Source of the DNA: Prorocentrum cordatum
Lineage: Eukaryota; Sar; Dinophyceae; Prorocentrales; Prorocentraceae
Length of the DNA stretch: 64,000 nt
Assembly (NCBI GenBank): GCA_963575745.1
Contig: CAUYUJ010015294.1
Span: 56,001-120,000, forward strand
Direction of reading: 5' to 3'
Position 1 is the first letter of the stretch. The number at the start of each line of letters is the position of its first letter. Of the stretch, positions 987-35,560 are shown one piece after another. The notes under the pieces are model-generated. The model searched no databases, was not told the DNA's origin, and saw only the letters and a program-made list of their open reading frames with translations. The position numbers and the translations under genes were made by a program.

Positions 987-1107
987 ATTTTCAACCGACC
1001 AAAAGTCAGCAAAAGGTCCGTCGAGATTTTTCTTGCCAACTAGCTCTCCAGCGCGCCGGAATTACTCTTAAGCTTCCAGCAACTAGCTAAGGGAAGCTCT
1101 ACAAGTT
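987..1107 (+). repeat. B-tail remainder of another C-A-B element
   Basis: Resumes in mid B (ATTTTCAACCGACC...) and closes with GAAGCTCTACAAGTT. Its own head is not identifiable in the window. It is the host flank of the large nest that opens at 1,108. Confidence 0.6.
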
Positions 1108-1734
1108 ACAGGGCGCCGGCGGTAAACCGTCAACCTTTCTTACCACCGGGGGACTCGTAGAGCTTCCTGACAATATATAATGTCGAGAAAAAATTGCAGA
1201 GAACGAATAATTTTTCAGCCTAAGGGATTTCAGACCTCTCGATGCAACAACCCAACGCCCCCGATGCTTATCGATTGTCTTCTTTACAAGCTCTCTAGCT
1301 CTCCTACAGCCGAGTTACGTGCGTAGATCGACAGCACTTCTCAAGATGACTCGAACAAAACGAATAGTTTGGCAAACCCAGCTCGAGTCTTAGACCGAGT
1401 TCAGACCTCTGAATGCGACAGGCGGACGCGTCTGAGCTCTCTGAATCGATTTCTGTCATTACCAGCCCTGCAGCCCCCCTACAGCCTGAGTTAAGTGCAG
1501 AAAACCGACAGCACCTCTCAGGATCACTCGAACAATACGAACAGTTTCGCGACTCTAGATCTGGCAGTAGACCGAGTTCAGAGCTCTTGATTCGACAGTC
1601 AAACGCGACTGATGATTTTGAATCGATTTATGTAAGTATCAGCTCTGTAGCTGTCCTGTAGCCCGAGTTAACTGCAGAAAACCAACAGCACCTCTCAAGA
1701 TGACTCGAATAATGCGACTGGGTTTGCGTACCTA

Positions 1735-2126
1735 GCTCGACTAGCAGACCGAGTTCAAACCTCTGGATACAACAGCCGAACGCGCCTGATCATTCTGAAT
1801 CGATCAGGTGTGCTTACCAGCTCTGTAGCTGTCCTCTATCTCGAGTTAAGTCCAGTATACCGACAGCGCGAATCGAGATGACTCGAAACGGCCGATCCCG
1901 CCTGGACGCTTTTTGGCAGTAAAAGGTACCCGATCGAGCCAAAAAGCATCGCGGCGGGATCGGCTGTTTTGAGTCATCTTGATACGCGTTCTCGGTATTT
2001 TGTACTTAACTCGAGCTGTACGGCAGCTACAGAGGTCATTCTGGCAGAAATCGATTACGAATTATCAGACGCGTTCATCTGTTCCATCTAAAGGTCTGAA
2101 CTCGGTCTGCTGCCCGAGCTAGATGA
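1735..2126. repeat. Large fold-back: inverted A/B junction
   Basis: The end of the A array and start of B (to 1,917) is followed after a 20-nt spacer (1,918-1,937) by its inverted copy (1,938 to about 2,126). The inner 57 bp of the arms match with a few differences: GCCAAAAAGC...GGCGGGATCGGC... against the complement of the left arm. The outer parts align more loosely. It would extrude a long hairpin. Confidence 0.75.
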
Positions 2127-2244
2127 GATCAAATTGGAGAGCGGGAATAAGATCAAATATTACGGGAAAAAATACTGACTCTAACGAATGGTTGAATTTC
2201 GAGAACAAAATTTTCAACCTAGCAAAAGTCATCAAAACGTCGAG

Positions 2245-2636
2245 ACTGGCGCCGGCGGTGAACTGTCAACCTGGTCACCACAGGGAACCTCGTAGAGCTC
2301 TTTCCACGCGTAAGAGTGCCCAGAATCGAAGCATTGAACTTTGCAGTAGTTTCTTGAAATATCTAATTTCTAATTTTGTGTGTCAATCTGAGGTCAGGTT
2401 CCTGGGTTCGCTCAGAAGAATTTCTCGACGGAATGAGCTGAGAATTAGAGAGGCAACTTCTGTCATGCAAAACTTCGCTCTGCTTAATTATCAGCCCAAA
2501 CGAATGGTTAGAGCTATGAAATCGGCTGAGCCAGGCCGCAGATGGTATGATCGCGTCTCTTGAAATTTCGCGAACTAGCTCCACCCCGTTGCTGAATTCC
2601 TCTTGCTCTGTTAGCACGAGAGAGCTCTACGAGGTA
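2245..2636 (+). mobile_element. D-type element inserted in B at GTCGAG^ATT
   Basis: Starts ACTGGCGCCGGCGGTGAAC, has CCTCGTAGAGCTC soon after the head and closes with GAGAGCTCTACGAGGT at 2,636. The host B tail resumes immediately as ATTTTTCTTGCCA, exactly the sequence that follows GTCGAG in other B copies. The interior is diverged from other D copies. Confidence 0.7.
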
Positions 2637-2649
2637 TTTTTCTTGCCAA

Positions 2650-3046
2650 TGGAAACCGGCGGTAGACCGTCAACCAGGTTACCGCCGGGCACCTCCTAGA
2701 GCTCTTTCGTTGCACAGCCCCCCTCGGAAAACATGAAGGAAGCTTCTAAAGCGAGAGCCGAAAAAATCGAAAAATAACGATTTTTTGGTTTCCATGCAAA
2801 AGCGGTTCCTGCAAGTCTTTCGATAGTAATGTTCCACCTACGCACCTGAAAATTTAACTGGCAGACGCGGCATAACTCACTCCACGTGAGAAAAATATGG
2901 TGTCTCAAAATAAATTGTCAAATAACTTTCAAATCTTAGCACAACCGACCCAAAGTCACCACTCTGTCTCTTAAGGCCGGGTCGGCCAACTAGCTCCACC
3001 CCGCGCCGGAATTCCTCCAGCTCATCGATGCCGAGAGCTCTACGAG
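2650..3046 (+). mobile_element. E element
   Basis: Head variant ATGGAAACCGGCGG, then CACCTCCTAGAGCTCTTTCG, an interior with AAAAATCGAAAAATAACG and GTAATGTTCCACCTACGCAC, the signature AAATTGTCAAATAACTTTC, and the closing segment ACTAGCTCCACCCCGCGCC...GAGCTCTACGAGG. After it an extra copy of TTTTCTTGCCA appears before the host B resumes, so the right junction is not perfectly clean. Confidence 0.7.
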
Positions 3047-3140
3047 GAACTTTTCTTGCCAACTAGCTCTCCAGCGCCACGGAATCATGGGAACCAGCGG
3101 TAAACCGTCAACCAGGTCCGCCGGGCACCTCGTAGAGCTC

Positions 3141-4134
3141 GACAGCACCTCTCAAGATGACCGAAAAATACGAATAGTTTGGCAAACCTAGCTCGAGTAT
3201 CAGACCGAGTTCAGACCTCTGCATGCGACAGGCGGACGCGTCTGATGTCTCTGAATCGATTCCTGTGATTACCAGCCTGCAGCCCCCCTACAGCCCGAGT
3301 TCAATGGGAAACCGACAGCACCTCTCAGGATGACTCGAACAATACGAATAGTTTCGCGGACCTAGTTCGGGCAGCAGACAGAGTTCGGAGCTCTGGATTC
3401 GAAAGGCGGACGCACCTGATGTCTCCGAATCGAATCCAATGATTATCAGCCATGCAGCCCCCCACAGCCCGAGTTGAGTGCAGAGAACCGACAGCATCTC
3501 TGAAGATGACTCGAACAATACGAATAGTTTCGCGATTCTAGATCGGGCAGCAGACCGAGTTCAGAGCTCTGGATTCAACAGACAACGGCCACTGATGGTT
3601 CTGAATCAGATTCTGTACGCATCAGCTCTGTAGCTGTCCTGTAGCTCGAGCTAAGTACAGAAAACCGAGAGCGTCTGTCAAGATGACTCAAATAATACGA
3701 ATAGGTTTGCGGACCTAGCTCGGCTAACAGACCGAGTTCAGACCTCTGGATTCAACAGGCGAACGCGCCGAACCATTCTACATCGATTAGCTGTGCTTAC
3801 CAGCTCTGTAGCTGACCTGAAGCTCGAGTTATCTTGAGAAAACCGTCATCGCGTGTCAAGATGACTCGAAACGGCCGATCCCGCCTGCCTGCTTCTTGGC
3901 AGTTAAATGTACCCGATCGAGCTCAGATCAAGATGGCGAGCGCGAAAAATATCGAATATCATGGGAAAAAATACTAGAGCTCAAACGAATCGTTGAATTT
4001 CGAGAACAAAATTTTCAACCGACCAAAAGTCACCAAAAGGTCCGTCGAGATTTTTCTTGCCAACTAGCTCTCCAGCGCCCCGGAATTACTCTTAAGCTTC
4101 CAGCAGTAACTTGCTGAGGGAAGCTCTACGAGTT
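3141..4134 (+). mobile_element. Headless C-A-B element
   Basis: About four A monomers (3,141-3,860) and a complete B tail with the terminal hairpin AGCTTCC...GGGAAGCT and closing ACGAGTT. The expected C head is missing at the 3,140/3,141 junction, where an E head runs directly into A sequence. This looks like a deletion or recombination product. Confidence 0.7.
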
Positions 4135-5970
4135 ACTAGCCACCCCGCGCCGGAACTGGGAACCGGCGGTAAACCGTCAACCTGGCTACCGCCGGAAATC
4201 TCGTAGAGCTCTTTTCTTGCACGGCGATCGTCGAAACACATGAAGGAAGCTTCTAGAGCGAGAAACCAGAAACTCGAAAAATCACGTTTTTCTGTTTTTA
4301 TCCAACGTCGGTTCCGCCAAGTGTTTTCATAATAATACTGCACCTATGGGCCTGAAAATTTTACGGGCGGACGCGTCATAACCCACTACAGGTGCGAAAA
4401 ATCTGCTTTCTCAAAATGAATTGTCAAATATCCTTCAATTTTTCGCAAAACCACCCAAAAGTTACCACTTTGTCCTTTCTGGCCGGGTCGGCCAACTGGG
4501 CGCCGGCGGTAAACCGTCAACCTTTGCTACCGCCGGGGGACTCGTAGAGCTTCCTGACAACATATAATGTCGGAAAACATTACACCGAAAAAATAGTTTT
4601 CCAGCCCAAGCAATTTAAAACCTCTTGAATGCAACAGCCGAACGCCCCCGATGCTTCTGGAATGTCTTCTGTACGAGCTCTGTAGCTCCTCTACAGCCCG
4701 AGTTACGCGCGTAAATCGACAGCACCTCTCAAGATGACTCGAACAATACGAATAGTTTGGCAAACCTAGCTCGAGTATCAGACCGAGTTCAGACCTCTGC
4801 ATGCGACAGACGGACGCGTCTGATGTCTCTGACTCGATTCCTGTGATTACCAGCCCAGCAGCCCCCCTACAGCCCGAGTTATGTGCAGGAAACCAACAGC
4901 ACCTCTCAGGATGACTCGGACAATACGAATACTTTCGCGGACCTAGTTCGGGCAGCAGACAGAGTTCGGAGCTCTGGATTCGAAAGGCGGACGCGCCTGA
5001 TGTCTCCGAATCAATTCCAGAGATTACCAGCCATGCAGCCCCCCTACAGCCCGAGTTTAATGCAGAGAACCAACAGCATCTCTGAAGATGACTCGAACAA
5101 TACGAATAGTTTCGCGATTCTAGATCGGGCATCAGACCGAGTTCAGAGCTCTGGATTCAACAGACAACGGCCACTGATGATTCTGGATCAGATTCTGTAC
5201 GTATCAGCACAGAAAACCGAGAGCGTCTGTCAAGATGACTCAAATAATACGAATAGGTTTGCGGACCTAGCTCGGCTAGCAGACCGAGTTCAGACCTCGA
5301 GGTTCAACAGGCGAACGCGCCTGATCATTCTGAATGAATTAGCTGTGCTTACCAGCTCTGTAGCTGGCCTGAAGCTCGATTTATCTTGAGACAACCGTCA
5401 ACGCGTGACGAGATGACTCGAAACGGCCGATCCCACCGGAACGCTTTTTGGCAGTAAAAGGTACCCGATCCAGCTAAGATCAAGATGGCGAGCGGGACTG
5501 AGATCGAATATCACGAGAAAAATACTAGAGCTCTAACGAATGGTTGAATTTCGAGAACAAAATTTTCAACCGACCAAAAGTCACCAAAAGGTCCGTCGAG
5601 ATGTTTCTTGCCAACTAGCTCTTCAGCGCCCCGGAATTATGGGAACCGGCGGTAAACCGTCAACCAGGTCACCGCCGGCGCCCTCGTAGAGCTCTTCTTG
5701 CACACGGCGCTCCTCAGTAAGCATCAAGGAAACGTCCAGGGCAAGATCTGAGAAATTCGAAAAATCACATTTTTCTGTTTCTGTCCAACGTCGGTTCCTC
5801 CAAGTGAACTAATACTAAATCTGGCTCTAGAGAGCTGAGATGCTCAGGAAACGAAGTTTATATCCCAATGCTGAAAATCTGTTTTCTCAAAATGGATTGT
5901 CAAACATCTTTCAAATCTTAGCTAAAACGGACAAAAGTTATCACATCTTCTTTTCTGGTCGGGTCGACCA

Positions 5971-6000
5971 ACTGGCGCCGGCGGTGAACCGTCAACCTGG
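5971..6000 (+). repeat. Truncated D head
   Basis: ACTGGCGCCGGCGGTGAACC and a few further bases, then the D sequence stops and unrelated sequence follows at 6,001. Confidence 0.75.
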
Positions 6001-6366
6001 TTTTTTGGGGTTTTCGGACCGATGCTCCAGCTGGGTCAACTGGCGGCCAGAATCTGTTGCGCCAAATGCACAACAGCGCTAGTAAGCGCCTCAGCAGCAC
6101 TAAGTTCGGCGTCGGTTATCGTAGCACCCTCCAGGCACCACGCGGCTTCGCACACATCCCTCCAAACGAGAGGCATATTAGAGGACACGGAATAGGGGGA
6201 GGAGGAGGGGAGAGGAGAACACGAGATACACTTATTACAATCATATCTGTGATTGATGAAACCCACTTGAAGCCAAAAGCCGCACCCCGTTCCTTTGCTG
6301 CAAACTCCCCCATCGTATCCACCACGACAGGCGATAGGTTGTAGAAAGTCCTCAAAGCTAAACTTG
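6001..6366 (-). other. Unique segment inside the nest, possible captured coding fragment
   Basis: About 365 bp with no similarity to any repeat family here. The minus strand has two overlapping open frames, 6,116-6,355 (79 codons; includes VVVDTMGEFAAKERGAAFGF) and 6,036-6,407 (includes ITDAELSAAEALTSAVVHLA). Both stretches have ordinary protein-like composition, unlike the surrounding repeats. The frame change near a CTCCTCCTCC tract at about 6,200 could be an intron or a frameshift. I do not recognise the protein. Confidence 0.35.
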
Positions 6367-8252
6367 GACGCGTCTGATGTCTCTGAATCGATTCCTGTGA
6401 TTACCATCCCTGCAGCCCCCCCCCCCTACAGCCCGAGTTAAGTGCAGGAAACCATCAGCACCTCTCAGGCTTACTCGAAGAATACGAATAGTTTCGCAGA
6501 CCTAGTTCGGGCAGCAGACAGAGTTCGGAGCTCTGGATTCAAAAGGCTGACGCGCCTGATGTCTCTGAATCGATTCCAGTGATTACCAGCCATGCAGCCA
6601 CCCTGCAGCCCGAGTTAAGTGCAGAGAACCGACAGCATCTCTCAAGATGACTCGAACAATACGAATAGTTTCGCGATTTTAGATTGGGCGGCAGACCGAG
6701 TTCAGAGCTCTGGATTCAAAAGACAACAGCCACTGATGATTCTGAATCAGATTCTGTGCGTATCAGCTCTGTAGCTGTCCTGTAGCTCGAGTTAAGTACA
6801 GAAAACCGAGAGTGTCTGTCAAGATGACTCGAATAATACGAATAGGTTTGCGGACCTAGCTCTGCTAGCAGACCGAGTTCAGACCTCTGGGTTCAACAGG
6901 CGAACGCGCCTGATCATTCTGAATCGATGAGCTGTGCTTACCAGCTCTGTAGCTGGTCTGAAGCTCGAGTTATCTTGAGAAAACCGTGACCGCGTGACAA
7001 GCTGACTCGAAACGACCGATCCCGCCCGTGTGCTTTTTGGCAGTAAAAGGTACCCGATCGAGCTGAGATCAAGATGGCGAGCGGGAATGAGATCGAATAT
7101 CACGGGAAAAAATACTAGAGCTCTGACGAATGGTTGGATTTCGAGAACCAAATTTTCAACCGACCAAAGGTCAGCAAAAGTTCCGTCGAGATTTGTCTTG
7201 CCAACTAGCTCTCCAGCGCGCCGGAATTACTGGGCGCCGGCGGTAAACCGTCAACCTTGGTTACCGCCGGGAGACTCGTAGAGCTTCCTAGCTCGACTCG
7301 AGTTGAGAAAACCGACAGCACCTACCAACATTCCGACTCATAGTGAATATTTCTTCACCTCTGAATGTGACAGGCGACGCGTCTGATGTCTGCGAATCGA
7401 CTCCTGTCATTATCAGCCCTGCAGCCCGCCCTACAACCTGAGTTAAGTGCAGAAAACCGACAGCACCTCTCAGGATGACTCGAACAATACAGTAGCTTCG
7501 CAGACCTAATTCGGGCAGCGGACCGAGTTCCGAGCTCTGGATTCGACAGGCGAACGCGTCTGATGTCTTCAAACCGATTACTGTGACCACCAGCACTGTA
7601 GCCCCTCTCAGCGCGAGTTGAGTGCAGAAAACTGAGAGCACTTCTTAAGATGACTCGACCAATACGAATAGTTGCGCGATTCCAGATCGGGCAGCAGACC
7701 GAGTTCAGAGCTCTGGATTCAACAGACAAACGCAACTGATGATTCTGAATCCGGCTCTGTAAATATCAGCTCTGTAGCTGTCCTACAGCTTGAGTTGAGT
7801 ACAGAAACCGAGAATTCCTGTCAAGATGACTCGAATATAGACCGAGTTCAGACCTCTGGGTTCAACAGGCGAACGCGCCTGATCATTCTGAATCGATGAG
7901 CTGTGCTTACCAGCTCTGTAGCTGTCCTAAAGCTCGAGTTATGTTTAGAAAACCGTCAGCGCGTATCAAGATGACGCAAAACTGCCGATCCCGCACAGTG
8001 CTTTTCGATAGTAATATTAACCCGATCGAGCTAAGATTTAGATGGCGAGCGGTAATAAGATCGAATATGACGGGAAAAAATACTAGAGTTCAAACGAATT
8101 GTTGAATTTCAACCGACCGAAAGTCGGCAAAAGTTCCGTCGATTGCCAACTAGCTCTCCGGCGCGCCGGAATTACTCTTAGCTTCCAGCAATAACTTGCT
8201 AGGGGAAGCTCTGAGCTTCCAGCAATAACTTGGTAAGGGAAGCTCTAGAGTT
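6367..8252 (+). mobile_element. C-A-B element, head missing, hosting another C-A-B
   Basis: A monomers 6,367-7,008 and B tail 7,009-7,228, cut at CGCCGGAATT. Two successive terminal hairpins at 8,180-8,252 (both with CTTCCAGCAATAACTT) are best read as the closings of the inner element and of this one. Confidence 0.6.
7229..8212 (+). mobile_element. C-A-B element
   Basis: Head with a perfect dyad, CCGGCGGTAA and TTACCGCCGG around 7,236-7,270, then CTCGTAGAGCTTCC, nearly four A monomers (7,311-7,975) and a B tail closing with GGGGAAGCTCTGAG. Inserted at GGAATT^ACT of the preceding B tail. Confidence 0.7.
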
Positions 8253-8589
8253 ACTGGCGCCGGCGATGAACCGTCAACCTGATCACCGCCGGGAACCTCG
8301 CAGAGCTCCTAGAACGCGTAAGAGTGCTCAGCATCAAAAGAGAGGGCTTCTGGAAGCATTTCCCGAAAAAAGAGAAATCACGATTTTTTCATGTCGACAT
8401 AAAGTTGGTTTCGCCAAGTGTTTTGATAGTAAAAGTACATCCAGAGAGCTTATATTGAGACGCAGAGGCCCTCATAACCTTCTACAGGTGCGAAAAATCT
8501 GCTTTCTCAAATGAATTGTCAAATATCTTTCAAATTGTCCGCATGGCCAGAATTCTCTGGCTCATTGCTGCCGAAGAGCTCCTCGAGGT
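8253..8589 (+). mobile_element. D/E-type element
   Basis: Head ACTGGCGCCGGCGATGAACC, CTCGCAGAGCTCC, interior with GTCGACATAAAGTTGG and AATTGTCAAATATCTTTC, closing GAAGAGCTCCTCGAGGT. The left dyad arm carries one uncompensated change. Confidence 0.65.
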
Positions 8590-8871
8590 GCTCCACCCCG
8601 CGCCAGAATTACTTTAGCTCATCGATGCCGAAAAGCGGTACTCTTAAGCTTCCAGCAATAACTTGCTGAGGGAAGCTCTACGAGCTACTAGCTCCATCCA
8701 CGCCGGAATTTTTCTAGCTCATCGATGCCGAGAAGCTCTACGACGTATTCCTCTAGCTCATCGACGGCGAAGAGCTCTACGAGGTACTCTTAAACCTCCA
8801 GCAAGAACTTGCTGAGGGAAGTTCTGCAAGTTACTAGCTCCACCCTGCGCCGGAATTCTTCTAGCTCATCG
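8590..8871 (+). repeat. Run of six closing segments of interrupted elements
   Basis: Consecutive pieces end at 8,639 (E type), 8,686 (C type), 8,746 (E), 8,785 (E) and 8,832 (C), with a sixth (E/D type) interrupted at 8,871. Each begins at a different internal site of its family, not at a family start. I read them as closing brackets of the elements opened at 5,639, 4,495, 4,155, 3,087 and 1,108. Confidence 0.7.
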
Positions 8872-9004
8872 ACTGGGCGCCGGCGGCCGGAGGAGCTTTC
8901 GCCAAGCTTCGACGCGTGCCTACACGCGTGCAGACACGCGTGAAAGCGATTCTGGCAGCGCTGCAGCAGCGTTGCAGGTGTGTATGTTCCTCTTTGATCT
9001 CCGG
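8872..9004 (+). repeat. C head scrap fused to a G-family fragment
   Basis: ACTGGGCGCCGGCGG is followed directly by GC-rich G-like sequence containing GACGCGTGCCTACACGCGTG and CAGCGCTGCAGCAGCG. It joins the forward nest on the left to inverted material on the right. Confidence 0.6.
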
Positions 9005-23518: not shown

Positions 23519-24333
23519 ACTGGCGCCGGCGGTGAACCGTCAACCTGGTCACTGCCGGGAACCTCGTAGAGCTCCTTGCACGCGTAAGAAAGCTCAGGAT
23601 CGAAGCGAAGAGCTTATTGGAGCTTTTCTAGAAAAACGTAAAATTGAGATTTTTCGGAGTCAACATGAAGTCGGTTCCCGGAAGTCAACTGATACTAAAA
23701 CTGCCTCTAGAGAGCTGAGCTGCTGAGGAAACATAGTTTATATGCCAATGCTCGGCGTAAAAATCTGCTTTCTCAAAATGAATTGTCAAATATCTTTCAA
23801 AAAATCGCAAAACCACCTAAAAGTTGTCACATTGTCCTTTCTGGCCGGGTGGGCCAACTGGCGCCGGCGGTGAACCGTCAACCTGGTCACCGCCGGGAAC
23901 CTCGTAGAGCTCCTTGAATCCGTGAGAAAGCTCAGCATCGAAGCGGAAGCTTCTGGGAGCTTTTCTACAGAAAAAATCAAGTTGAGATTTTTCGGAGTCA
24001 ACATGAAGTCGGTTGCTCCAAGTGAACTGGTACTGAAAATCACTCTAGAGAGCTGAGCTGCTCAGGGAACGAAGTTTATATCTCAATGCTCGGAGTAAAA
24101 ATCTGCTTTCACAAAATGAATTGTCAAATATCTTTCAAAAAATTACAAAACCACCCAAAAGATACACTTTGGTCCAGCCCCGGGTCCAGCCGGGGGTGGG
24201 CCAACTAGCACTACCCCGCTCCGGAAACTCCTCTATCTCAATCGATAACGAAAGCTCAACTACTACGAGGTACTAGCACCAACCCGCGGCCCGAATTCCT
24301 CTTAGCTCATCTCGTCGAAGAGCTCTACGAGGT
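23519..24333 (+). mobile_element. D element hosting another D element
   Basis: Segments 23,519-23,856 and 24,272-24,333 join at GGCCA^ACTAGC to give one complete D element ending GAGCTCTACGAGGT. Inserted at CTCATCG^A of the preceding D remainder. Confidence 0.8.
23857..24271 (+). mobile_element. D element nested in a D element
   Basis: Starts ACTGGCGCCGGCGGTGAACC and closes ACTACTACGAGGT. The host continues as ACTAGCACCAACCCG, giving a clean same-family nest with no duplication beyond the ambiguous ACT. Confidence 0.8.
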
Positions 24334-25313
24334 ACTGGCGCCGGCGGTGAACCGTCAACCTGGTCACCGCCGGGAACCACGTAGAGCTCCTTGAATCCGT
24401 GAGAAAGCTCAGCATCAAAGCGGGAGCTTCTGGGAGCTTTTCTACAAAAACTTCAAGTTGAGATTTTTTCGGAGTCAACATGAAGTCCGTTCCTTCAAGT
24501 GAACTGGTACTGAAAATGACTCTAGATGGCCGAGCTGATCAGGGAACGAAGTTTATATCTCAATGCTCGGAGTAAAAATCTGCTTTTTCAAAATGAATTG
24601 TCAAATATCTTTCAAAAAATTGCAAAACCAACCAAAAGTTGTCACATTGTCCGCCTCGGCCGGCTGGACCAAAGTTCTCACTCCCAGCGAAGCTATTCAT
24701 ATGAAGTCTCGCGCTCTCAGTGAGAGCGCGAGACATTCTGCGTCGACAAAAATGCACCAGAACTCTCTAGGTCACCCATAGATCGATATAAATTAGAAAA
24801 AAAATCATCCGACACAAAAAATATAAAATTGTACAAATCGATATTTTCATTGATTTTGAAAATTCAAATCAATTTGGGCACTCTCGAGGCTCCCATTCGA
24901 TGTCTCGCCATGTCGCTACTTCGATTGGAAATGTAACCTGGCATGCATAGCAAAGCACTCAGCTCGATATCCATCATCGAAACACCGTTCGCAAACGCAT
25001 ACATAAGACCAGTATTTCTAGCATAACACCTGACTCACGACAGCCATTATCCTTTCTATCTAGGAACTCTCGAGCTTCCAGTGTGACGCGCCAGATCATT
25101 CTGCATCGACTGGTGTGCGTGAGAGGTCTGCAGCTTGCTGACAGCTCGAGTTAAGTAAAGCCAACCACCGTCACCTGCAAAACTGCACTGCAGGCAAAGT
25201 CGGTTCCTGCAAGTCTTTTGACAGTAATATTGCCCCTAGAGCCCTGAAAATTTTACCAGCAGGTGCGCCATAGCTTACTGTAGGTAGGAAAAATCCAACT
25301 AGTGAAAACGAAT
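24334..25313 (+). mobile_element. D-H element, long form, second copy
   Basis: Near-identical in order to 22,308-23,385, with the hairpin at 24,706. Cut at GAAAACGAAT by a degenerate D; its text resumes at 25,713 as TATAGTCAAATCTGCAC, where sister copies read TTGTCAAATCTTGCAC. Confidence 0.75.
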
Positions 25314-25712
25314 ACTGCGTGATGGTGATGATCCGACAACCTATCATGAGTCTGATCCATCGTAGAGCTCCTTTCACGCCTAAGATTCTTCAGATTCGAA
25401 AGAGAGAGCTCCTGGAAGAATTTCTCGAAAACGGGGAAAATTGATTTTTTCGCGTCGACGTGAAGATGGTTCCTCCAAGTGTTTTGATAGTAAGATTGCG
25501 CCTACGGAGCTCATACTAAGAACGAGAGGCCGTCATAGTCGTTTACAGGTGCGAAAAATCTGCTTTCTCAAAATGAATTGTCAAATATCTTTCAAAAAAT
25601 TGCAAAACCACCCAAAAGTTATCACTTTGTCCTTTCTGGCCGGGTGGGCCAACTAGCTCCACCCCGCGCCGGAATTCCTCTAGCTCTCGATGCCTAAAGA
25701 GCTCTACGAGGT
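25314..25712 (+). mobile_element. Diverged D/E element
   Basis: The head dyad is decayed, but CATCGTAGAGCTCC, GTCGACGTGAAGATGG, AATTGTCAAATATCTTTC and the closing GAGCTCTACGAGGT at 25,712 are clear. Confidence 0.7.
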
Positions 25713-26032
25713 TATAGTCAAATCTGCACACTGGAGCCACGGTGAACCGTCACCTGGTCACGACCCGGAACCTCGTAGAGCTCCCTGAATCCTTGAGAAA
25801 TCTCAAGCCCCAACAAAGCGGGAGTTCTGGGACTTTTCAACATAAAAAAATCAAAGTAAAAATTTTCGTGGCGAACATGAAGTCGTTGCTCCAGTATGCG
25901 AAACCGAACTTGCTAACTGAAAGTCCACTCTAGAGAGCTGAGTCTGCTTTCTCAAAAAAAGTTTATATCTCAATGCTCACGAAGTGTAAAAATCTGCTTT
26001 CCTCAAATGAATTGTCAAATATCATTCAAAAA
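25713..26032 (+). repeat. D-H remainder and degenerate D element
   Basis: A short resumed D-H piece, then a D element with a decayed head (ACTGGAGCCACGGTGAACCG at 25,730), interior matches and internal rearrangement (GTTTATATCTCAATGCTC). It is cut near 26,033 by another D head. Confidence 0.6.
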
Positions 26033-26360
26033 ACAGCACCGGCGGTGAACCGTCAACCTGGTCACCGCCGGAAACCTCGTAGAGCTCCTCGCAACCGTGA
26101 GAAAGCTCAGGATCAAGCTTCTGGGAGCTTTCTACAGAAACTTCAAGTTCAGATTTTTCGGAGTCAACATGAAGTCGGTTCCTCCAAGTGAACTGGTACT
26201 GAAAATGACTCTAGAGGGCTGAGCTGCTCAGGGAACAAAGTTTATATCTCAATGCTCGGAGTAAAAATCTGCTTTCTCAAAATGAATTGTCAAATATCTT
26301 TCAAAAAATTACAAAACCACCCAAAAGTTATCACATTGTCCGCCTCCGCCGGGTGGGCCA
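26033..26360 (+). mobile_element. D element up to its interruption
   Basis: ACAGCACCGGCGGTGAACC head with intact dyad, typical D text, cut at GGTGGGCCA by a C head. Confidence 0.75.
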
Positions 26361-26722
26361 ACTGGGCGCCGGCGGTAAACCGTCAACCTTTCTTACCGCC
26401 GGGGGACTCGTAGAGCTTCCTGACAATATATACTGAGGGAAAAATCTCCAAAGAACGACTATTTCTCAAGCCCAAGCGATTTCAGACCTCTCAAGATAAC
26501 GCTAACCAAAAACAAACAGTTTCGCAACCCAGTTCGAGTATCAAACCGAGTTCAGACCTCTGAATGCGACAGGCGGGCGCGTCTGATGACTGCCAACCCA
26601 CTCATGTGATTCCAGCCCTAAAGCCCCCCTACAGCCCGAGTTAAGTGCAGAAAACCGACAGTATCGACTCGAATAATATAATAGTTTTGCGAACCTAGTT
26701 CGAACCTCCGCCGGGTGGGCCA
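26361..26722 (+). mobile_element. Truncated C-A element plus D scrap
   Basis: C head, about 1.5 A monomers, then an abrupt join at about 26,703 to CCTCCGCCGGGTGGGCCA of a D element. The same D text precedes the head at 26,361, so this piece may be one unit of a local duplication. Confidence 0.65.
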
Positions 26723-27765
26723 ACTGGGCGCCGGCGGTAAACCGTCAACCTTTCTTACCGCCGGGGGACTCGTAGAGCTTCCTGACAATATATAATGTGG
26801 AAAAGGATTTCAGAGAACGACTAGTTTTCCAGCCCATAGACCCCTCACGATGACAGTTTTCCAATCGAGCTCGAGTATGAGACTGAGTTCAGATCTCTGA
26901 ATGCGACAGGCGGACGCGTCTGATGTCTGCAGATCGATTCCTGTGATTACCAGCTCTGCAGCCACCAATACGGCCTGAGTTAAATGCAGAAAACCGAGAG
27001 TACCTCCCAGGATGACTCGAATAATACAACAGTTTTGCGGATCTCGTTCGAGCAGCAGACCGAGTTCCGAGCTCTCGGTTCGGCGAACAGGCGCGCCTGA
27101 TGTCTCGAAATCGGTTTCTCTGACCAGCAGCACTGTAGCCCCCCCCCCCAGCACGATTTAAGTACAGAAAACCGAGAGCACTTCTCAAGATGACTCGAAC
27201 AATACCAATAGTTTCGCGAACCTAGCTCGGGGAGCAGGCCGAGTTCAGAGCTCTTGATTCAACAGACGAACGCGCCTGATAATTCTCAATCGATTTCTGT
27301 GATTATTAGCTCTGTGCCTGCCCTACAGATCGAGTTAAGTACGAAAAACCGAGAGCGTCTACTACAATAATTCGAATAATACGAATAGGTTTGCGACCCT
27401 AGCTCGGCTAGCAGACCGAGTTCAGACCTCTGGATTCAACAGGCGAACGCGCCTAATCATTCTCAATGCATTAGCTGTGCTGACCAGCTCTGTAGTTGTC
27501 CTGAAGCTCGAGTTATCTTGAGAAAACCGACAGCGCGTATCAAGATGACTCGAAACGGCCGTTCCCGCCCGTGTGCTTTTTGGCCTTCAAAGTTACCCGA
27601 TCGAGCTGAGAACAAGATGGCGAGCGGGAATAAGATCGAATATCATGGGAAAAAATACTAGAGCTCTAACGAATGGTCAAATTTTGAGAACAAAATTTTC
27701 AACCGACCAAAAGTCACCAAAAAGATCAAGAGTTATTCTTTCCAAAACAAGCTCTCCACTGCTCC
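26723..27765 (+). mobile_element. C-A-B element up to its interruption
   Basis: Head, about four A monomers (26,831-27,555) and a B tail that decays after CAAAAGTCACC and is cut at CTGCTCCGG. A poly-C run lies at about 27,140. Confidence 0.7.
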
Positions 27766-28102
27766 GGACTGGCCGCCTCGGTGAAACCGTCAACCGGTCA
27801 CCGCCGGTGAACCACGTAACTCCTCTTACTAAAAAGTAACAGAGCATCGACACAGAATCGAAAAATTGAGATTTTTCGAAAATCTTCAAATTCGATTTTT
27901 TCGATATTCATATTCGCTCAGTTCCTGGAAGTCAGCTCATACAAAAATGCATCGAGAGAGCTGAGCTGCTGTCAGAGAGAAGTTCATATGCCAGTACTCG
28001 GCGTAAAAATCTGCTTTTTGAAAATAAATGGTCAAATATCTTTCAAATTTTTGCAAAACCATCCAAAAGTTGTCACATTGTCCGTTCTGGCCGGGTGGGC
28101 CA
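27766..28102 (+). mobile_element. Diverged D element
   Basis: Head ACTGGCCGCCTCGGTGAAAC (decayed), interior with GTTCATATGCCAGTACTCGG, cut at GGTGGGCCA by the next D head. Confidence 0.65.
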
Positions 28103-29158
28103 ACTGGCGCCGGCGGTGAACCGTCAACCTGGTCACCGCCGGGAACCTCGTAGAGCTCCTTGAATTGAATCCGTGAGAAAGCTCAGCATCAAAGCGGGAG
28201 CTTCTGGGAGCTTTTCTACAAACACTTCAAGTTGAGATTTTTTCGGAGTCAACATCAAGTCGGTTCCTTCAAGTGAACTGGTACTGAAAATGACTCTAGA
28301 TGGCCGAGCTGATCAGGGAACGAAGTTTATATCTCAATGCTCGGAGTAACAATCTGCTTTTTCAAAATGAATTGTCAAATATCTTTCAAAAAATTGCAAA
28401 ACCACCCAAAGTTGTCACATTGTCCGCCTCGGCCGGCTGGACCAAAGTTCTCACTCCCAGCGAAGCTATTCATATGAAGTCTCGCGCTCTCAGTGAGAGC
28501 GCGAGACCATTCTGCGTCGACAAAAATGCACCAGAACTCTCTAGGTCACCCATAGATCGATATAAATTAGAAAAAATCATCCGACATAAAAAATGTAAAA
28601 TTGTACAAATCGATATTTTTCATTAATTTTGAAAATTCTAATCAATTTGGGCACTCTCGAGGCTCATTCGATGTCTCGCATGTCGCTGCTTCGATTGGAA
28701 TGCACATGGCATGCATAGCATGCACTCAGCTCGAATTATCATCGAAACACCGTTCGCAACACGCATACATAGAGACGGTATTTCGATCATAACTCCTGAC
28801 TCAGCCATTTCGAGGAACTCTCGAGCTTCCAGTGTGACGCGTCAGATCATTCTGCATCGACTGGTGTGCGTGAGAGGTCTGTAGATTGCTGACAGCTCGA
28901 GTTAAGTAAAGCCAACCATCGTCACCTGCCAAACTGTACTGCGGGCAAAGTCTGTTCCCGCAAGTCTTTTGATAGTAATATTGCTTCTAGAGCCCTGAAA
29001 ATTTACCAGCAGATGCGCCATAGCTTATTTTAGGTAGGAAAACTCCAACTTATGAAAACGAATTGTCAAATCTTGCACAATGATCCAAAAACCGACCCCA
29101 GGTTACCACATTGTCTCTTTTGGTCGGGTCGGCCAACTAGCTCCACCCTGCGCCCGAA
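28103..29158 (+). mobile_element. D-H element, long form, third copy
   Basis: Same order as 22,308-23,385 with the hairpin at 28,479. Ends abruptly at CGCCCGAATTC where F sequence begins, so the closing segment is missing and the nest structure is broken here. Confidence 0.8.
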
Positions 29159-30512
29159 TTCGAGTTGCTCCAAGGATCGTGGACCGGCGCGTGGGCGTGT
29201 CCTCCTTACCACCCACAGCCGGCTTCTTATCTGAAACCCTCTGCTCTCAAGGAGCAATCCGGGAAAAACCCGGATGGCGAAGCCAAGCGCGGAGCGCCGC
29301 ACGGGGACCTCTGCCAGGCGGCCTGAACGATGCGCGGGACGCTGGAAACCTTGCAGGAGACGTTTGCAGGGGCGTCGTTTACGATGCGTGGGGCCTGCAA
29401 AGCGCGCAAGGAAGATCTGCCTAGGAGCCTGGAAGAACTGCCGAAGCTCTTCCCTGCGCCGAAGCTTCGCGCACCCTGGAGCCACGCGTATTGGGAAACG
29501 CTGGGAAGCCACGCTCCCGGAACCGCTGCCGGTTCCGGCAACCTGCTGCGAGAACCGTGGACCGGCGGAGGTGGGCGTGTGCTCCTCACCACCCACCGCC
29601 GGCTTCTTATCTGAAACCCTCAGCTCTGCAAGGAGCTATCCGGGAAATTTGTAAGCGTCCAAAACCCGGATAGCGAAAGCCAAGCGCGGAACGCCGCACG
29701 GGGTTCTCTGCCAGGCCGCCTGAAACGATGCGCGGGACGCTGGAAACCTCGCAGGAGGCGCTTTCAGGAGCGCTGTTTACGATGCGTGGGGCTATTTCGC
29801 GTGCGTGGAGACGCTGGAAACGACGCGTGACGGAGCTCTGCGGACGCTGGACACGATCCCTGATACCCTTGCACGCTTTCCCGCACACGTGCAGGCACGC
29901 CTGCACGCGTGCCTGGACGCTGGACACGATCCCTGATACCCTTGCACGCTTTCCCGCACACGTGCAGGCACGCCTGCACGCGTGCCTGGAGCACCCCTGA
30001 GCTGCTGCCAGCGACGCTTCCACGCGTGCCTGCACGCGTGCAGGCACGCGTGGACGCGTGCATGGAGAGCCCCCGGAACACGCTGCCGGGACCGGCAACT
30101 TCCGCCGAGAATCGTGGAGCGGCAGAGGTGGGCTTGTGCTCCTCACCACCCACCGCGGGCTTCTTATCTGAAACCCTCAGCTCTCAAGGAGCTATCCGGG
30201 AACTTGTAAGCGTCCAAAACCCGGATAGCCCAAGCACGGAACGCCGCACGGGGACCTAGGCCGCCTGAAACGATGCGCGGGACGCTGGAAGAACTGCCGA
30301 AGCTCCCTTCCGAAGCTCTGCCGAAGCGCTTCGCGCACCCTGGAGCCACGCGTATTGGGAAACGCTAGGAAGCCACGCTCCCGGACCCGCTGCAAGTTCC
30401 GGCAACCTGCTCCGGGGATCGTGGAGCGGCGGAGGTGGGCGTGTGCTCCTCACCACCCACCGCCGGCTTCTTCTCTGAAACCCTCAGCTCTCCAAGGAGC
30501 TACCCGGGAAAA
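29159..30512 (+). mobile_element. F element array
   Basis: An F 3' end (to about 29,262, GAGCAATCCGGG) followed by three further F units ending at about 29,645 (GAGCTATCCGGG), 30,202 (GAGCTATCCGGG) and 30,512 (GAGCTACCCGGG). The unit starts present read TTGTAAGCGTCC. Many overlapping open frames on both strands reflect high GC and are not conserved among units. Confidence 0.75.
29846..29991 (+). repeat. 73-bp tandem duplication inside an F unit
   Basis: GCTGGACACGATCCCTGATA starts at 29,846 and again at 29,919; both copies contain GCACACGTGCAGGCACGCC. It is next to the ACGCGTGC-rich palindrome of 30,020-30,060. Confidence 0.85.
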
Positions 30513-31299
30513 AAGAGCGCAGCGAGCCTTTGGGGACGGGAAATCTTTCCTGAAGAGCCCCGGGAAGCTCTCTGCAGCGCTGCCGAAGCGCTGGTAGAAC
30601 CGCTTCCGTGCGTGCCTGCACGTGTGCAGGCACGCGTGGAAGCTTGCCGGCAGCTCCCCCGGACACCTCTTGTTGTCCAAAACCCGAGTAGCGAAGTGAG
30701 AGACGCGCGCGCACGGGCCGCGCGCACTTCTGTCCGCCTGCTCCGCACGCTGCGTGCGCACACCTCTTGGACGTGCGCGGAGGTGCCAGCTTCTGAAGCG
30801 CTCGCTGCTTGCAAACGTGCGTGGTGGCGATGGAAAGCTCGCCTGAAGCGCTCCTGAAGGGCAGCAGACGTGCGTGGTGGCGGTGGACAGCTCGCCTCAA
30901 GCGCTCCTGAAGGGCAGAGAGCGACGCTTCCACGCCTGCCTGCACGCGTGGGCGCTCGCTGCCCGGGAAGCTTCGCGAGGCCTCTGGTGCACGTTCGCGA
31001 GGCCTCCGGGGCACGTTCTACTGGAACGTATTGGAACAGACGCTCCGGGACACGCTGCGGAACCCGAACCCTCACGGAAGGGCACGTGGAGCGGTGGGCG
31101 GAAGGGTGCGGCGGCGTGCGCGCACCGGCCAGCTTCTTCTCTAACAACCCTACGTAGCCCACGCGGCTATCCGGAAACGTTTCCGGTTCACCGGAGCTGC
31201 TGCGAGGCCTGTGGGCCGCCGTGGAGGAGCTTATGGCAGGCGCCACCACCGTCCGGCTTCTAATCTTAAACCCTTTAGCTCTCAGCGAGCTCTCCGGGA
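30513..31299 (+). mobile_element. G/F-related mixed units
   Basis: G-like start (TTTGGGGACGGGAAATC), a palindrome-related segment near 30,607, then TGTCCAAAACCCGAGTAGCG and a diverged unit ending GCGGCTATCCGG. An internal 53-bp duplication begins at CGTGCGTGGTGG (30,816 and 30,869). Confidence 0.6.
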
Positions 31300-33789
31300 G
31301 CTTGGCAGCGTCCACTTGGTGGCGTCCAAAACCCGGAGAGCAAAGAGAACACGCACCGGAAAGCTGTCCTGGCAAGCCCACGGAAGCTCTCGTGAAGTTT
31401 TCCCCGGGGCTTTGGAGGCTTCCCTGCAGCGTCTCTGAAGCGCTGCCAGGAACGCTTCCACGCGTGCCTGCACGCGTGCAGGCACGCGTGGAAGCTTGCC
31501 GGAAGCTCTCCCGGACCCGCTGCGAGGTTTTACAGGGCGCTGCGGGGATCGTGGAGCGGCGGAGATGGGCTGCTGGCGGGCACCACCACCGCCCGGCTTC
31601 TAATCTTAGGCCCTCTAGCTCTCAGAGAGCTCTCTGGGAAAAACCCGAAGAGCGAAGAGACCCTCGGGGACAGGAAATCTTTCCTGGAGAGCTCTGGAAA
31701 GCTTCCCTGCAGCGTTGCCGAAGCGCTGCCAGAAACGCTTCCATGCGTGCCTGCGCGCGTGCAGGCCCGCGTGGAAGCTTGCCGGAAGCTCTCCTGGACA
31801 CGTGGCCGGCTCAAAAAAGCCCTTGCGGGGATTCTGGAGCGCCGCCGGCTTCTAATGTAAAACCCTTTAGCTCTCAGCGAGCTCTCCGGGATAAACCCGG
31901 AGAGAAGAGACCCTTTGGGGACGGGACAGCTTCCATGGGGGGCTCTGGGAAGCTTCCCTGCAGCGCTGCCGAAGCGCTGCGAGAAACGCCTCCACGCGTG
32001 CCTGCACGCGTGCAGGCACGCGTGGAAGCTTGCCGGAAGCTCTCCCGGACCCATTGCCGGTTCAGGCGAGTCGCTGCGAGGATTCTGGAGCGTCGGAAAG
32101 GAGCTCCTGGCGGGCACCACCACCGTCCGGCTTCTTATCTTAAACCCTTTAGCTCTCAGCGAGCTCTCCGGGAAAAACCCGGAGAGCAAAGGAGGCCACG
32201 CACCGGGAAGCCTTCCTGGCAAGCCCACGGAAGCTGTCGAGAAGCTCTTCTGGGGCTCTGGGGGCTTCCCTGCAGCGTCTCTGAAGCGCTGCCAGGAACG
32301 TTTCCACGCGTGCCTGCACGCGTGCAGGCACGCTTGGACGCTTGCCGGAAGCTCCCCCGGACCAGCTGCCGGGTCAGGCGAGCTGCTGCGGGGACCGTGG
32401 AGCGGCGGAGATGGGCTGCTGGCGGGCACCACCACCGCCCGGCTTCTACTCTAAAACCCTCTAGCTCTCAGAGAGCTCTCTGGGAATTACTCTTAAACTT
32501 CCAGGTGCTAGCTGAGGTAAGCTATACGAGTCACTGGCGGCGTCCAAAACCCGGAGAGGGAAGAGAACTTGGCAGCGTCCAAAACCTGGAGAGCGAGAAG
32601 GAATCTTTCCTAGAGAGCTCCCTGGGGCCGTCTTGAAGCGCTTCGAAGGCACTGCCAGGCGCGCCCCCATGCGTGCCTGCACGCGTGCCGGCACACGTGG
32701 ACGCGTGCATTGCTGCAATGCTCTGTCACACCCTCCTGGGGCGCCTGCAAAGCTCTGTCGACCCTTTCTGAAGCGATCCTGCATTGCTGCGGACCCGCTG
32801 CCGGGCCGGGCGAGTTGCTGCGGGGCTCGTGGACCGGCGGAGATGGGCTGCTGGCGGGCACCACCACCGTCCGGCTTCTAATCTAAAGCCCTCTAGCTCT
32901 CAGAGAGCTCTCCGGGAACTTGGTTGCGTCCAAAACCCGGAGAGCAAGAAGGACACACACCCGAAAGCCTTCCTGGCGAGCCCTCGGGAGCTCCCCTGAA
33001 GCGCTTCCGGGGCTCTGGGGGGCTCCCCTGGAGCGCTTCTGAAGCGCTGCCGGGAACGCTTCCACGCGTCCCTGCACGCGTGGACTACCGGCAGCTCTCC
33101 CGGACACGCTGCCGGGTCAGGCGAGGCGCTGCGAGGATCGTGGAGCGGCGGAGATGGGCTGCTGGCGGGCACCACCACCGTCCGGTTTCTAATCTAAAAC
33201 CCTCTAGCTCTCAGAGAGCTCTCCGGGAATCTTGGCAGCGTCCAAAACCCGGAGAGGAAAGAGAATCTCGGGGACAGGATATCTTTCCTGGAGAGCCTTG
33301 GGGGGGCCCCCCTGGAGCGCTGCGGAAGCGCTGCCAGAAACGCTTCCATGCGTGCCTGCACGCATGCAGGCACACGTGGAAGCTTGCCGGAAGCTCTCCC
33401 GGACGCGCTGCTGGGCCGCCGGAGTTTCTGCGAGGCCTGTGGACCGCCGTGGAGGAGCTCCTGGCAGGCATCGCCACCGTCCGGCTTCTAGTCTTAAACC
33501 CTTTAACCCTCGGCGAGCTCTCCGGGAATCTCGGGGACGGGAAATCTTTCCTGGAGAGCCTTGGGGGGCGTCCCTGGAGCGCTGCGGAAGCGCTACCAGA
33601 AACCTTTCCATGCGTGCCTGCACGCATGCAGGCCCGCGTGGAAGCTTGCCGGAAGCTCTCCCGGACCCGTTGCCGGGCCGCCGGAGTTTCTGCGGGGAAC
33701 GTGGAGCGCCGTGGAGGAGCCCCTGGCAGGCACCACCACCGTCCGGCTTCTAATCTTAAGCCCTTTAGCTCTCAGCGAGCTCTCAGGGA
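31300..33789 (+). mobile_element. Tandem array of about eight G elements
   Basis: Units of about 250-370 bp end in GAGCTCTCCGGG or variants at about 31,638, 31,890, 32,174, 32,484, 32,916, 33,226, 33,527 and 33,789. Unit layout: GCGTCC, CCCGGAGAGC, a central palindrome, GGCGGAGATGGGCTGCTGG, CACCACCACCG, AGCTCTCAGAGAGCT and GCTCTCCGGG. CCCGGAGAGC and GCTCTCCGGG are inverted complements. A short B-tail scrap lies at 32,488-32,536. Confidence 0.8.
31454..31495. repeat. 42-bp perfect palindrome in a G unit
   Basis: Arms GCTTCCACGCGTGCCTGCACG and its exact complement. CACGCGTG occurs three times at 12-bp spacing (31,459; 31,471; 31,483). Similar palindromes, often 34-40 bp or slightly imperfect, occur in most G units from 31,300 to 42,400. 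Confidence 0.9.
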
Positions 33790-34032
33790 AAAAGTCAGCA
33801 AAAGGTCCGTCGAGATTTTTCTTGCCAACTAGCTCTCCAGCGCCCCGGAATTACTCTTAAGCTTCCAGCAAGAACTTGCTAAGGGAAGCTCTACGAGTTA
33901 CTAGCTCCATCCCGCGCCGGAATCCCTCTAGCTCATCGATGACGAAGAGTTCTACGAGGTATTACTTTTAAGCTTCCAGCAACTAGCTAAGGGAAGCTCT
34001 ACGAGTTATTCCTCTAGCGCATCGACGCCGAA
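33790..34032 (+). repeat. Run of closing segments (C, E, C, E)
   Basis: B remainder closing GCTCTACGAGTT at about 33,898; E-type ACTAGCTCCATCCC to TTCTACGAGGT at about 33,958; C-type from ATTACTTTTAAGC to CTCTACGAGTT at about 34,009; then ATTCCTCTAGCGCATC, cut by a G fragment. Same logic as 8,590-8,871; I could not match the openings. Confidence 0.6.
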
Positions 34033-35384
34033 AGATGGGCTGCTGGCGGGTACCACCACCGTCCGGCTTCTAATCTAAAGCCCTCTAGCTCTCAGAGAGC
34101 TCTCCGGGAACTAGCTCCACCCCGCGCCGGAATTCCTCTAGCTCATCGACGCCGAAGAGCTCTACGAGGTATTGGTAGCGTCCAAAACCCGGAGAGCAAA
34201 AGGACCTTCTGGAACGGGAGAGAAATCTTTCCTGAAGAGCTCTGGGGAGCTCCCCAGAAGCGCTTCTGAAGCGCCACCAGGACGCTTCCACGCGTGCCTG
34301 CACGCGTGCAGGCTCGCGTGGACGCGTGCTGGAAGCGCCCCCGAACCCGCTGCCGGCCCGGGCGAGTCGCTGCGGGCAGCGTCCAAAACCCGGAGAGCGA
34401 AGAACCTCTGGGACGGGACATCTTTTCTAAAGAGCTTTGGGGAGCTTCCCAGAACGCTTGTGAAGCGCTGCCAAGAACGCTTCCACGCGTGCCTGCGCGC
34501 GTGCAGGCACGCGTGGACGCGCGCTGGAAGCGCTCCCGAACCCGCTGCCGGCTCGGGCGAGTTGCTGCGAGGATCGTGGAGCGGCGGAGATGAGCTGCTG
34601 GCGGGCACCACCACCGTCGGGCTTCTTATCTAAAACCCTCTAGCTCTCAGAGAGCTCTCCGGGAATCTGGGCAAAACCGACCCAAAGTCACCACTTTGTC
34701 CTTTCTGGTCGGGTCCACCAACTAGCTCCACCCCGCGCCGGAATTCCTCTAGCTCATCGAAAACGAAGAGCTCTACGAGGTACTAGCTCCGCCCCGCGCC
34801 GGAATTCCTCTTCGATGCCGAAGAGCTCTACGAGGTACTTTGTCCTTTCTGATCGGGTCGACCAACTGGCTCCACCCCGCGCCGGAATTCCTCTAGCTCA
34901 TCCATGCCGAAGAGCTCTACGAGGGATATTCGCAAAACCACCCACTTGGTAGCGTCCACAACCCGGAGAGCGAAGGCACCTTCCGGGACGGGAAATCTTT
35001 CCTGGTGAGCTCTTGGGGGCCCCCGGAAGCGCTTCGAAAGCACTGCCAGGCGCGCCCCCATGTGTGCCTGCACGCGTGCAGGCACGCGTGGACGCGTGCC
35101 TTCCTGCAGAGCTCTGTCACACCCCCCTGGGGCGCCTGCAGAGCTCTGTCAAACCCTTCTGAAGCGATCCTACATTGCTGCGGACCCGCTGCCGGGCCGG
35201 GCGAGGCGCTGCGGGGATCGTGGACCGGCCGAGATGGGCTGCTGGCGGGCACCACCACCGTCCGGCTTCTGATCTAAAACCCTCTAGCTCTCTGAGAGCT
35301 CTCCGGGAAAAAAATGTCACTTTGTCCTTTCTGGTCGGCTCGACCAACTAGCTCCACCCCGCGCCGGAATTCCTACGAGGTACG
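34033..35384 (+). repeat. Segmental duplication, copy 1
   Basis: G fragment, E-tail segment, two G units (34,172-34,666), E pieces (34,667-34,943), a G unit (34,944-35,308) and an E piece. The same order recurs about 1,528 bp downstream. Confidence 0.7.
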
Positions 35385-35560
35385 GGAGAGAAATCCTTCC
35401 TGAAGAGCTCTGGGGAGCCCCCCAGAAGCGCTTCTGAAGCGCCACCAAGACGCTTCCACGCGTGCCTGCACGCGTGCAGGCTCGCGTGGACGCGTGCTGG
35501 AAGCGCCCCCGAGCCCGCTGCCGGCCCGGGCAAGTCGCTGCGGGGATCGTGGAGCGGCGG

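Follow-up and report, generated by a model that had tools for sequence, protein, structure and literature searches.

An eight-deep, single-orientation nest of short non-coding repeats, probably Helitron2-like, in the dinoflagellate Prorocentrum cordatum

Repeat families and architecture of the locus

The left end of a 64,000-base stretch of the Prorocentrum cordatum genome (the window, meaning the whole stretch analysed; bases 56,001–120,000 of the 1.07-Mb contig CAUYUJ010015294.1, from an assembly of 4.13 Gb in 21,875 contigs) carries a stack of short repeat elements set one inside another. The elements are non-coding, 0.3–1.2 kb in length, and belong to five families, for which consensuses were made from complete copies in the window and in 20 further loci: E (401 bases; 20 copies), F (398 bases; 16 copies), C (1222 bases; 14 copies), C2 (1045 bases; 4 copies), and D (295 bases; 12 copies). 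The 20 loci, each ~10 kb, are the best matches to the E copy at 4155–4494. C, which an earlier note on this DNA had called the C-A-B element, has a core made of a 176–178-base tandem repeat. In the forward sense, the elements start with CTGG or CTTGG and end with GGTA, GTTA, GTCA, or GGAA, or the complements of these. Thousands of candidate E copies occur in the genome (6,190 in a first look, the best 40 being scored). An exact 20-mer from the element head had no match in viral contigs and one in genome contigs, and an Rfam search of the window returned no match. Elsewhere in the genome, 63 matches to the peridinin-chlorophyll protein family occur, a family that is not known outside dinoflagellates.

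The DNA was parsed by a jump-penalised alignment, in which consensus pieces are joined with free jumps and which knows nothing of nesting. All statistics rest on the stricter of the parses; a lower jump cost gave noise outside the elements when the whole window was parsed. The pieces of the main nest are listed below with window coordinates, strand, and basis.

987..1108, +, closing piece of C_up (C 1099-1222), whose opening lies within F_0, to the left of the window
1109..2245, +, first part of C_a (C 1-1137); parse
2246..2636, +, F element within C_a, at C 1137|1138; parse
2637..2649, +, piece of C_a (C 1138-1150); parse
2650..3049, +, E element within C_a, with a 13-base direct repeat on either side; parse and sequence
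3050..3087, +, piece of C_a (C 1138-1175), cut after GGAATCA; parse and rejoining
3088..3140, +, first part of E_x (E 2-56), with E 57-340 deleted; parse
3141..4135, +, C element within E_x (C 223-1222), first 222 bases deleted; parse
4136..4155, +, piece of E_x (E 341-362), cut after CCGGAA; parse and rejoining
4156..4495, +, E_y (E 1-340), cut after GGCCAA; parse and rejoining
4496..5639, +, C_b (C 1-1175), cut after GGAATTA; parse and rejoining
5640..5971, +, E_z, a diverged E/F, cut after GACCAA; parse and rejoining
5972..7229, +, X_w: F start (30 bases), then 6002-6365, then C body at 6366-7229 (C 317-1175), cut after GGAATTA
7230..8212, +, C2, the innermost element, final 8 bases missing; parse
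8213..8253, +, closing piece of X_w (C about 1181-1222); parse and rejoining
8254..8589, +, F_v, a complete F at the tip of X_w; parse
8590..8640, +, closing piece of E_z (E 344-401, short deletions); parse and rejoining
8641..8687, +, closing piece of C_b (C 1176-1222); parse and rejoining
8688..8747, +, closing piece of E_y (E 341-401); parse and rejoining
8748..8786, +, closing piece of E_x (E 363-401); parse and rejoining
8787..8833, +, closing piece of C_a (C 1176-1222); parse and rejoining
8834..8872, +, second part of F_0 (F 338-376 / E 341-379); the opening of F_0 lies 3.8 kb to the left of the window (locus L043)

From left to right the elements open in the order C_a, E_x, E_y, C_b, E_z, X_w, and C2, and close in the order X_w (8213–8253), E_z, C_b, E_y, E_x, and C_a (8787–8833). 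With F_0 as the outermost member there are thus eight elements in one line, an eight-deep nest in a single orientation (F_0 around C_a, E_x, E_y, C_b, E_z, X_w, and C2 in turn) whose severed ends lie in mirror order at 8213–8872. The earlier note had proposed a nest at least five deep; the nest is real, and its depth is now put at eight elements. Both the eight-deep count and the five-pair stack described in that note were worked out by hand from the parse, which, blind to nesting, had returned the same five outer elements and the same mirror-ordered closing pieces to within a few bases. The list of elements in the note likewise matches the pieces, with two amendments: E_x is scarred (at 3140/3141, where E 57–340 was lost together with bases 1–222 of a C element) and C_a holds an F (2246–2636) and an E (2650–3049) of its own. 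F_0 is cut a second time at 8872, by a 14-base C start.

C_a also carries an inverted piece of the C core (1940–2123). Between the F start and the C body of X_w, positions 6002–6365 match no family and are possibly captured sequence; a 123-aa minus-strand frame in this segment has no Pfam match.

Rejoining of interrupted elements

Inner elements were removed by script and the outer elements aligned to consensuses of complete copies from other loci, and the alignments are continuous through all five junctions of the stack. The rejoined junctions read GGAATCA^CTCTTAAA for C_a, GCCGGAA^TTCCTCTAG for E_x, GGCCAA^CTAGCTCC for E_y, and GGAATTA^CTCTTAAG for C_b (the caret marks the joint), while E_z is joined as CCA^GCTCC with three host bases lost. 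Four of the five resume points claimed in the note are therefore perfect, and the fifth, that of E_z, fits with a 3-base loss. The X_w joint lacks about 5 bases. Against the consensuses, rejoined E_y is identical at 379 of 400 aligned positions (2 gap columns), C_b at 1126 of 1190 (32 gap columns), and E_z at 291 of 349 (82 gap columns; diverged middle), and the tails of C_a and E_x are identical at 75 of 85 and 57 of 59 positions (2 gap columns in the latter). The observation on which the note was built is confirmed and its interpretation as nesting is supported.

As the note had argued, chance would not be expected to give the mirror order. A single closing piece matches an opening at a rate of 0.085 (108 closings and 171 openings in the other loci), and a match of all five pairs has a probability of 2.8e-5 when calculated from closing frequencies and was found in 4 of 2,000,000 random draws.

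Two closing pieces, at 8834–8872 and 987–1108, have no partner in the window. A prediction set down beforehand placed two partners to the left: an E or F broken at CCAA with a C start after it, and a C cut near 1098–1101. The adjoining 10 kb leftward contain both predicted partners: F_0 is cut after GACCAA at -3496 with a C start next to the cut, and C_up, the element starting there, is itself cut after ACAAAA at -529. Once rejoined, F_0 is identical to its consensus at 301 of 364 aligned positions (25 gap columns) and C_up at 219 of 229 (10 gap columns). The same locus, L043, includes 1,876 bases that match no family (6538–8413) placed exactly between bases 33 and 34 of the C consensus, and a complete C (2831–4052) in opposite orientation within the core of another C, outside a terminus.

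Nesting elsewhere in the window and in other loci

Complete elements flanked on both sides by cut pieces offer an automatic version of the same comparison. The host resumes at the cut in 31 of 40 such sandwiches (one of four in the window and 30 of 36 in the 20 loci), versus 4.8% of mismatched pairs. The five pairs of the main stack are not among the 31, since automatic excision stopped at their scars. At locus L020, automatic excision resolved a four-element stack, E around F around D around E.

A second nest is probable in the window, with openings and closings in mirror order:

23520..34837, +, probable second nest

Its openings are cut at 23859, 26030, 26363, 27768, and 28105 and its closings begin at 33901, 33962, 34111, 34666, and 34783. 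Over 16–44 kb the mirror order gives a longest common subsequence of 7 vs 5.8 (p 0.12); a strict run of 5 in the second nest gives p 0.014 (0.008 without a duplicated block), a statistic that was picked after the looser test. A block of ~1.5 kb containing D, E, and F pieces is tandemly doubled at 34109–36940, where 34109–35310 matches 35637–36845 piecewise.

Beyond the nests, a frame at 49348–50067 of the window weakly matches reverse transcriptase, with a score under the curated cut-off. A 5,397-base sequence filed as part of a marine Nitrospinota metagenome-assembled genome (DUZG01000080.1, locus L044; 43% GC) has several similar element starts, and is perhaps misplaced protist DNA with related elements.

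Insertion sites and orientation

Target duplication is absent: at 27 of 31 junctions the host sequence continues with no base gained or lost (offset 0), though a one-base duplication of A is indistinguishable from an element ending in A, and the remaining four junctions have offsets of 5, 5, 1, and -3. In the forward sense the 27 offset-0 junctions are A|T (13), A|C (10), A|A (2), A|G (1), and C|T (1), with A at the left in 26 of them (mostly R|T on the other strand), and A is the base preceding the element at 263 of 295 starts. A departure from the duplication-free rule occurs in C_a, where a 13-base direct repeat (C 1138-1150) is present at 2637–2649 and 3050–3062, around the E at 2650–3049.

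The 295 starts divide into 179 in a same-orientation host, 16 in an opposite-orientation host, 43 at the tip of a same-orientation element, 56 without a recognised upstream element, and one at an edge. When hosts are split into a terminal stretch (the last 65 bases for E and F, 75 for C and C2, 40 for D) and a body, terminal hits are in the same orientation in 101 cases and the opposite orientation in none, compared with 78 and 16 in the bodies. The hits are also far denser in the terminal stretches. For E, F, C, and C2 hosts in the 20 loci there are 81 hits in 11,643 terminal bases vs 61 in 149,419 body bases (17-fold denser), and for hosts other than D in the window, 19 in 3,405 vs 3 in 26,976 (50-fold). 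The number of available sites does not explain this preference, because the terminal stretch holds 5–6 A|Y sites and the body 30–134. In the sampled loci, duplication-free insertion concentrates in the terminal 65–75 bases of resident E, F, and C elements, and within those bases it is always in the resident's orientation.

The strongest alternative to recognition of the resident terminus is that the locus itself determines orientation, for example through the direction of replication forks, as the dominance of the same orientation in host bodies might suggest. None of the 101 terminal hits is opposite, however, against 16 of the 94 body hits, and the 17-fold difference in density would need a separate cause, which leaves this alternative unlikely, though well ahead of the others considered below.

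Terminal structure and class

Read on the minus strand, E, F, C, and C2 share a 14–16-base inverted repeat lying 1–2 nucleotides (nt) from the 5' end, with its other copy 41–44 nt from the 3' end, and a hairpin with a 10-base stem 6–7 nt from the 3' end. Another hairpin, with a 5–7-base stem, is found near the 5' end. The termini expected of an autonomous partner on this strand are TACCTCGTAGAGC or TAACTCGTAGAGC at 5' and CCGGCGGTAA..TTACCGCCGG plus CCCAG at 3'. Single-strand folding supports the hairpins of C and, in E, the one at the forward-sense head, which is the 3' hairpin on the minus strand (z -2.39 for E, -1.86 for C). Asymmetric or subterminal inverted repeats and the absence of target-site duplication are both features of Helitron2/HINE elements, and four of the five families appear, on this minus-strand reading, to have the Helitron2/HINE terminal layout. 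The closing pieces would then be 5' ends, an amendment to the stack of closing brackets seen in the note, which otherwise holds in that each piece pairs with an opening.

It is improbable that the elements are instead cut-and-paste miniature inverted-repeat transposable elements (MITEs) or introners. They are short and non-coding, and introners with inverted repeats are enriched in introns of P. cordatum according to the part of the source used here (PMC10666404), but target duplication is absent at 27 of the 31 junctions and the inverted repeats are placed asymmetrically, with one copy terminal and the other 41–44 nt inside the opposite end.

Helitron_like_N has at least 151 matches in the genome (the best 150 of 1,615 candidates were scored). 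The frames recur at equal lengths (e.g., 1,797, 1,316, and 1,099 aa), and copies are >99% identical among L031 and L035–L038 and among L032 and L039–L042. The RepHel loci L031–L034 have no E or C heads or tails, just D-tail matches with 6–7 errors, and the flanks of further RepHel copies (four families) stay similar up to the sequence edges, where the element ends are not reached.

A rolling-circle origin also admits a different history for the stack, in which an element gained several termini by read-through past its end and moved as a composite, such that the stack was partly built elsewhere. The chimeric X_w (F start, DNA of no family, C body) and the 13-base repeat around the E at 2650–3049 would fit this history. 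In the portion of PMC5148889 drawn on here, FoHeli composites that combine a single 3' terminus with a number of short 5' termini are explained by self-insertion. Bypass alone, however, does not pair each extra terminus with a same-family opening cut at the same base on the opposite side, and this history is judged a little less probable still than the MITE or introner reading.

Slippage or unequal exchange producing a tandem tail repeat, with mirror order by chance, is very improbable, as the note had maintained: short tail arrays without nearby openings do occur in the window at 34.1–38.6 kb and a 34-base tandem repeat lies at 8175–8246, but the units of the stack alternate among unrelated families and start at their partners' cut points, random draws almost never fit, and both missing partners were predicted and then found. 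An assembly artefact, conceivable in so repetitive a region, has equally little to commend it given base-exact joins in an order that misassembly does not produce and similar nests on other contigs.

Proposed mechanism

The stack is a Russian-doll nest in which successive non-coding elements, probably Helitron2-like (HINE-like) rolling-circle transposons, landed in earlier ones in the same orientation. From the Helitron2 layout on the minus strand we infer that the brackets are 5' termini and that a transposase acts at the terminus of the resident. The transposase would recognise the 5' terminus of a resident copy and nick there, and the incoming single strand would be joined at the nicked terminus, always with the same polarity. 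Joining at the resident 5' terminus would explain why inserts share one orientation, cluster in the terminal stretch, and lack duplications, and nests would grow inwards because every insert supplies a fresh terminus. For Helraiser, the part of the report consulted (PMC4778049) describes an essential left terminal sequence and a 3' hairpin that serves as a terminator. It is possible, as a more tentative step, that the family uses its own resident 5' terminus as a preferred, orientation-locked landing site, such that each insertion gives the next site, inward growth has no limit, and the nests contribute to the swelling of a multi-gigabase dinoflagellate genome.

Several observations weigh against these proposals. 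As to targeting, the 20 loci were picked as best matches to one E copy and are a non-random sample, D hosts show no preference for their terminal stretch (1 of 15 hits), and the same-orientation bias extends to host bodies, so that terminal targeting alone is insufficient; another polarity, perhaps that of replication, may also act. As to nesting, nine of the 40 sandwiches are not continuous, and automatic excision alone did not collapse the five-pair stack. A further element, C', opens at -528 and is cut at 438 without a closing piece, a gap that the collapse of two adjacent 47-base tails might explain. Inserts are nearer their consensus than their hosts in 21 of 31 cases (p 0.035), but this signal of younger inserts is gone within a class (8 of 16). 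As to class, the E hairpin at the forward-sense tail folds no better than shuffles (z -0.82), and D lacks the 3' hairpin, having only an 11-base inverted repeat 5 and 57 nt from its ends. The canonical Helitron termini, 5'-TC and CTRR-3', are not seen, nor is the T-rich or TT insertion site of Helitron2/HINE; the insertion base is unlike that of Helentrons (TT) and appears to differ from that of canonical Helitrons (A|T), which is seen at 13 of 27 junctions, with T invariant on the other strand. An autonomous element with these termini was not found, the four RepHel loci stopping short of the element ends, and no RepHel piece was detected in the loci or the window with four query proteins.

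Nesting is frequent among transposons; here, each level of a nest can be closed at base resolution, giving the relative order of events without molecular dating, and the nests offer a ready-made set of sites, both empty and occupied, for a rolling-circle element. Dense terminal hits in one orientation would make the target choice of such an element directly testable, and a target that renews itself would be a simple way for dinoflagellate genomes to enter runaway growth.

Comparison with known systems

Among the literature matches listed, there is no account of these elements or of such nests in a dinoflagellate. The closest systems are described here from the parts of each source that were consulted. 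FoHeli, a non-canonical Helitron2 of Fusarium oxysporum, likewise has asymmetric terminal inverted repeats, no target duplication, and, in part of its groups, hairpins at both ends, and its composites, in which one 3' terminus goes with several short 5' termini, fit brackets that are 5' termini; groups 1 and 2, however, insert between TNAT and A or T, whereas the elements here insert at A|Y, and that account gives one nested case as opposed to deep stacks matched at every level in one orientation (PMC5148889). HINE/DINE-1 elements (non-autonomous Helentrons) resemble them in having subterminal inverted repeats (2–4 nt from 5', ~38–60 bp from 3'), a 3' palindrome, central tandem repeats, high copy number, and no coding capacity, but insert at TT (PMC4067079). 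Maize Helitrons insert near one another, and nested intermediates have been proposed for their multiple termini, though these are canonical elements (TC/CTRR) and their nesting is hypothetical, involving two or three steps (PMC3288121). The Zepp clusters of green algae, formed by a long interspersed nuclear element (LINE), also target existing copies and are rich in one element end, but they are centromeric, belong to a retrotransposon with 5' truncation, and in the part of the source drawn on show no matched pairs with exact resume points (PMC8226300). The parts of the present system are of known kinds, and what is new is the density, depth, and polarity of self-insertion.

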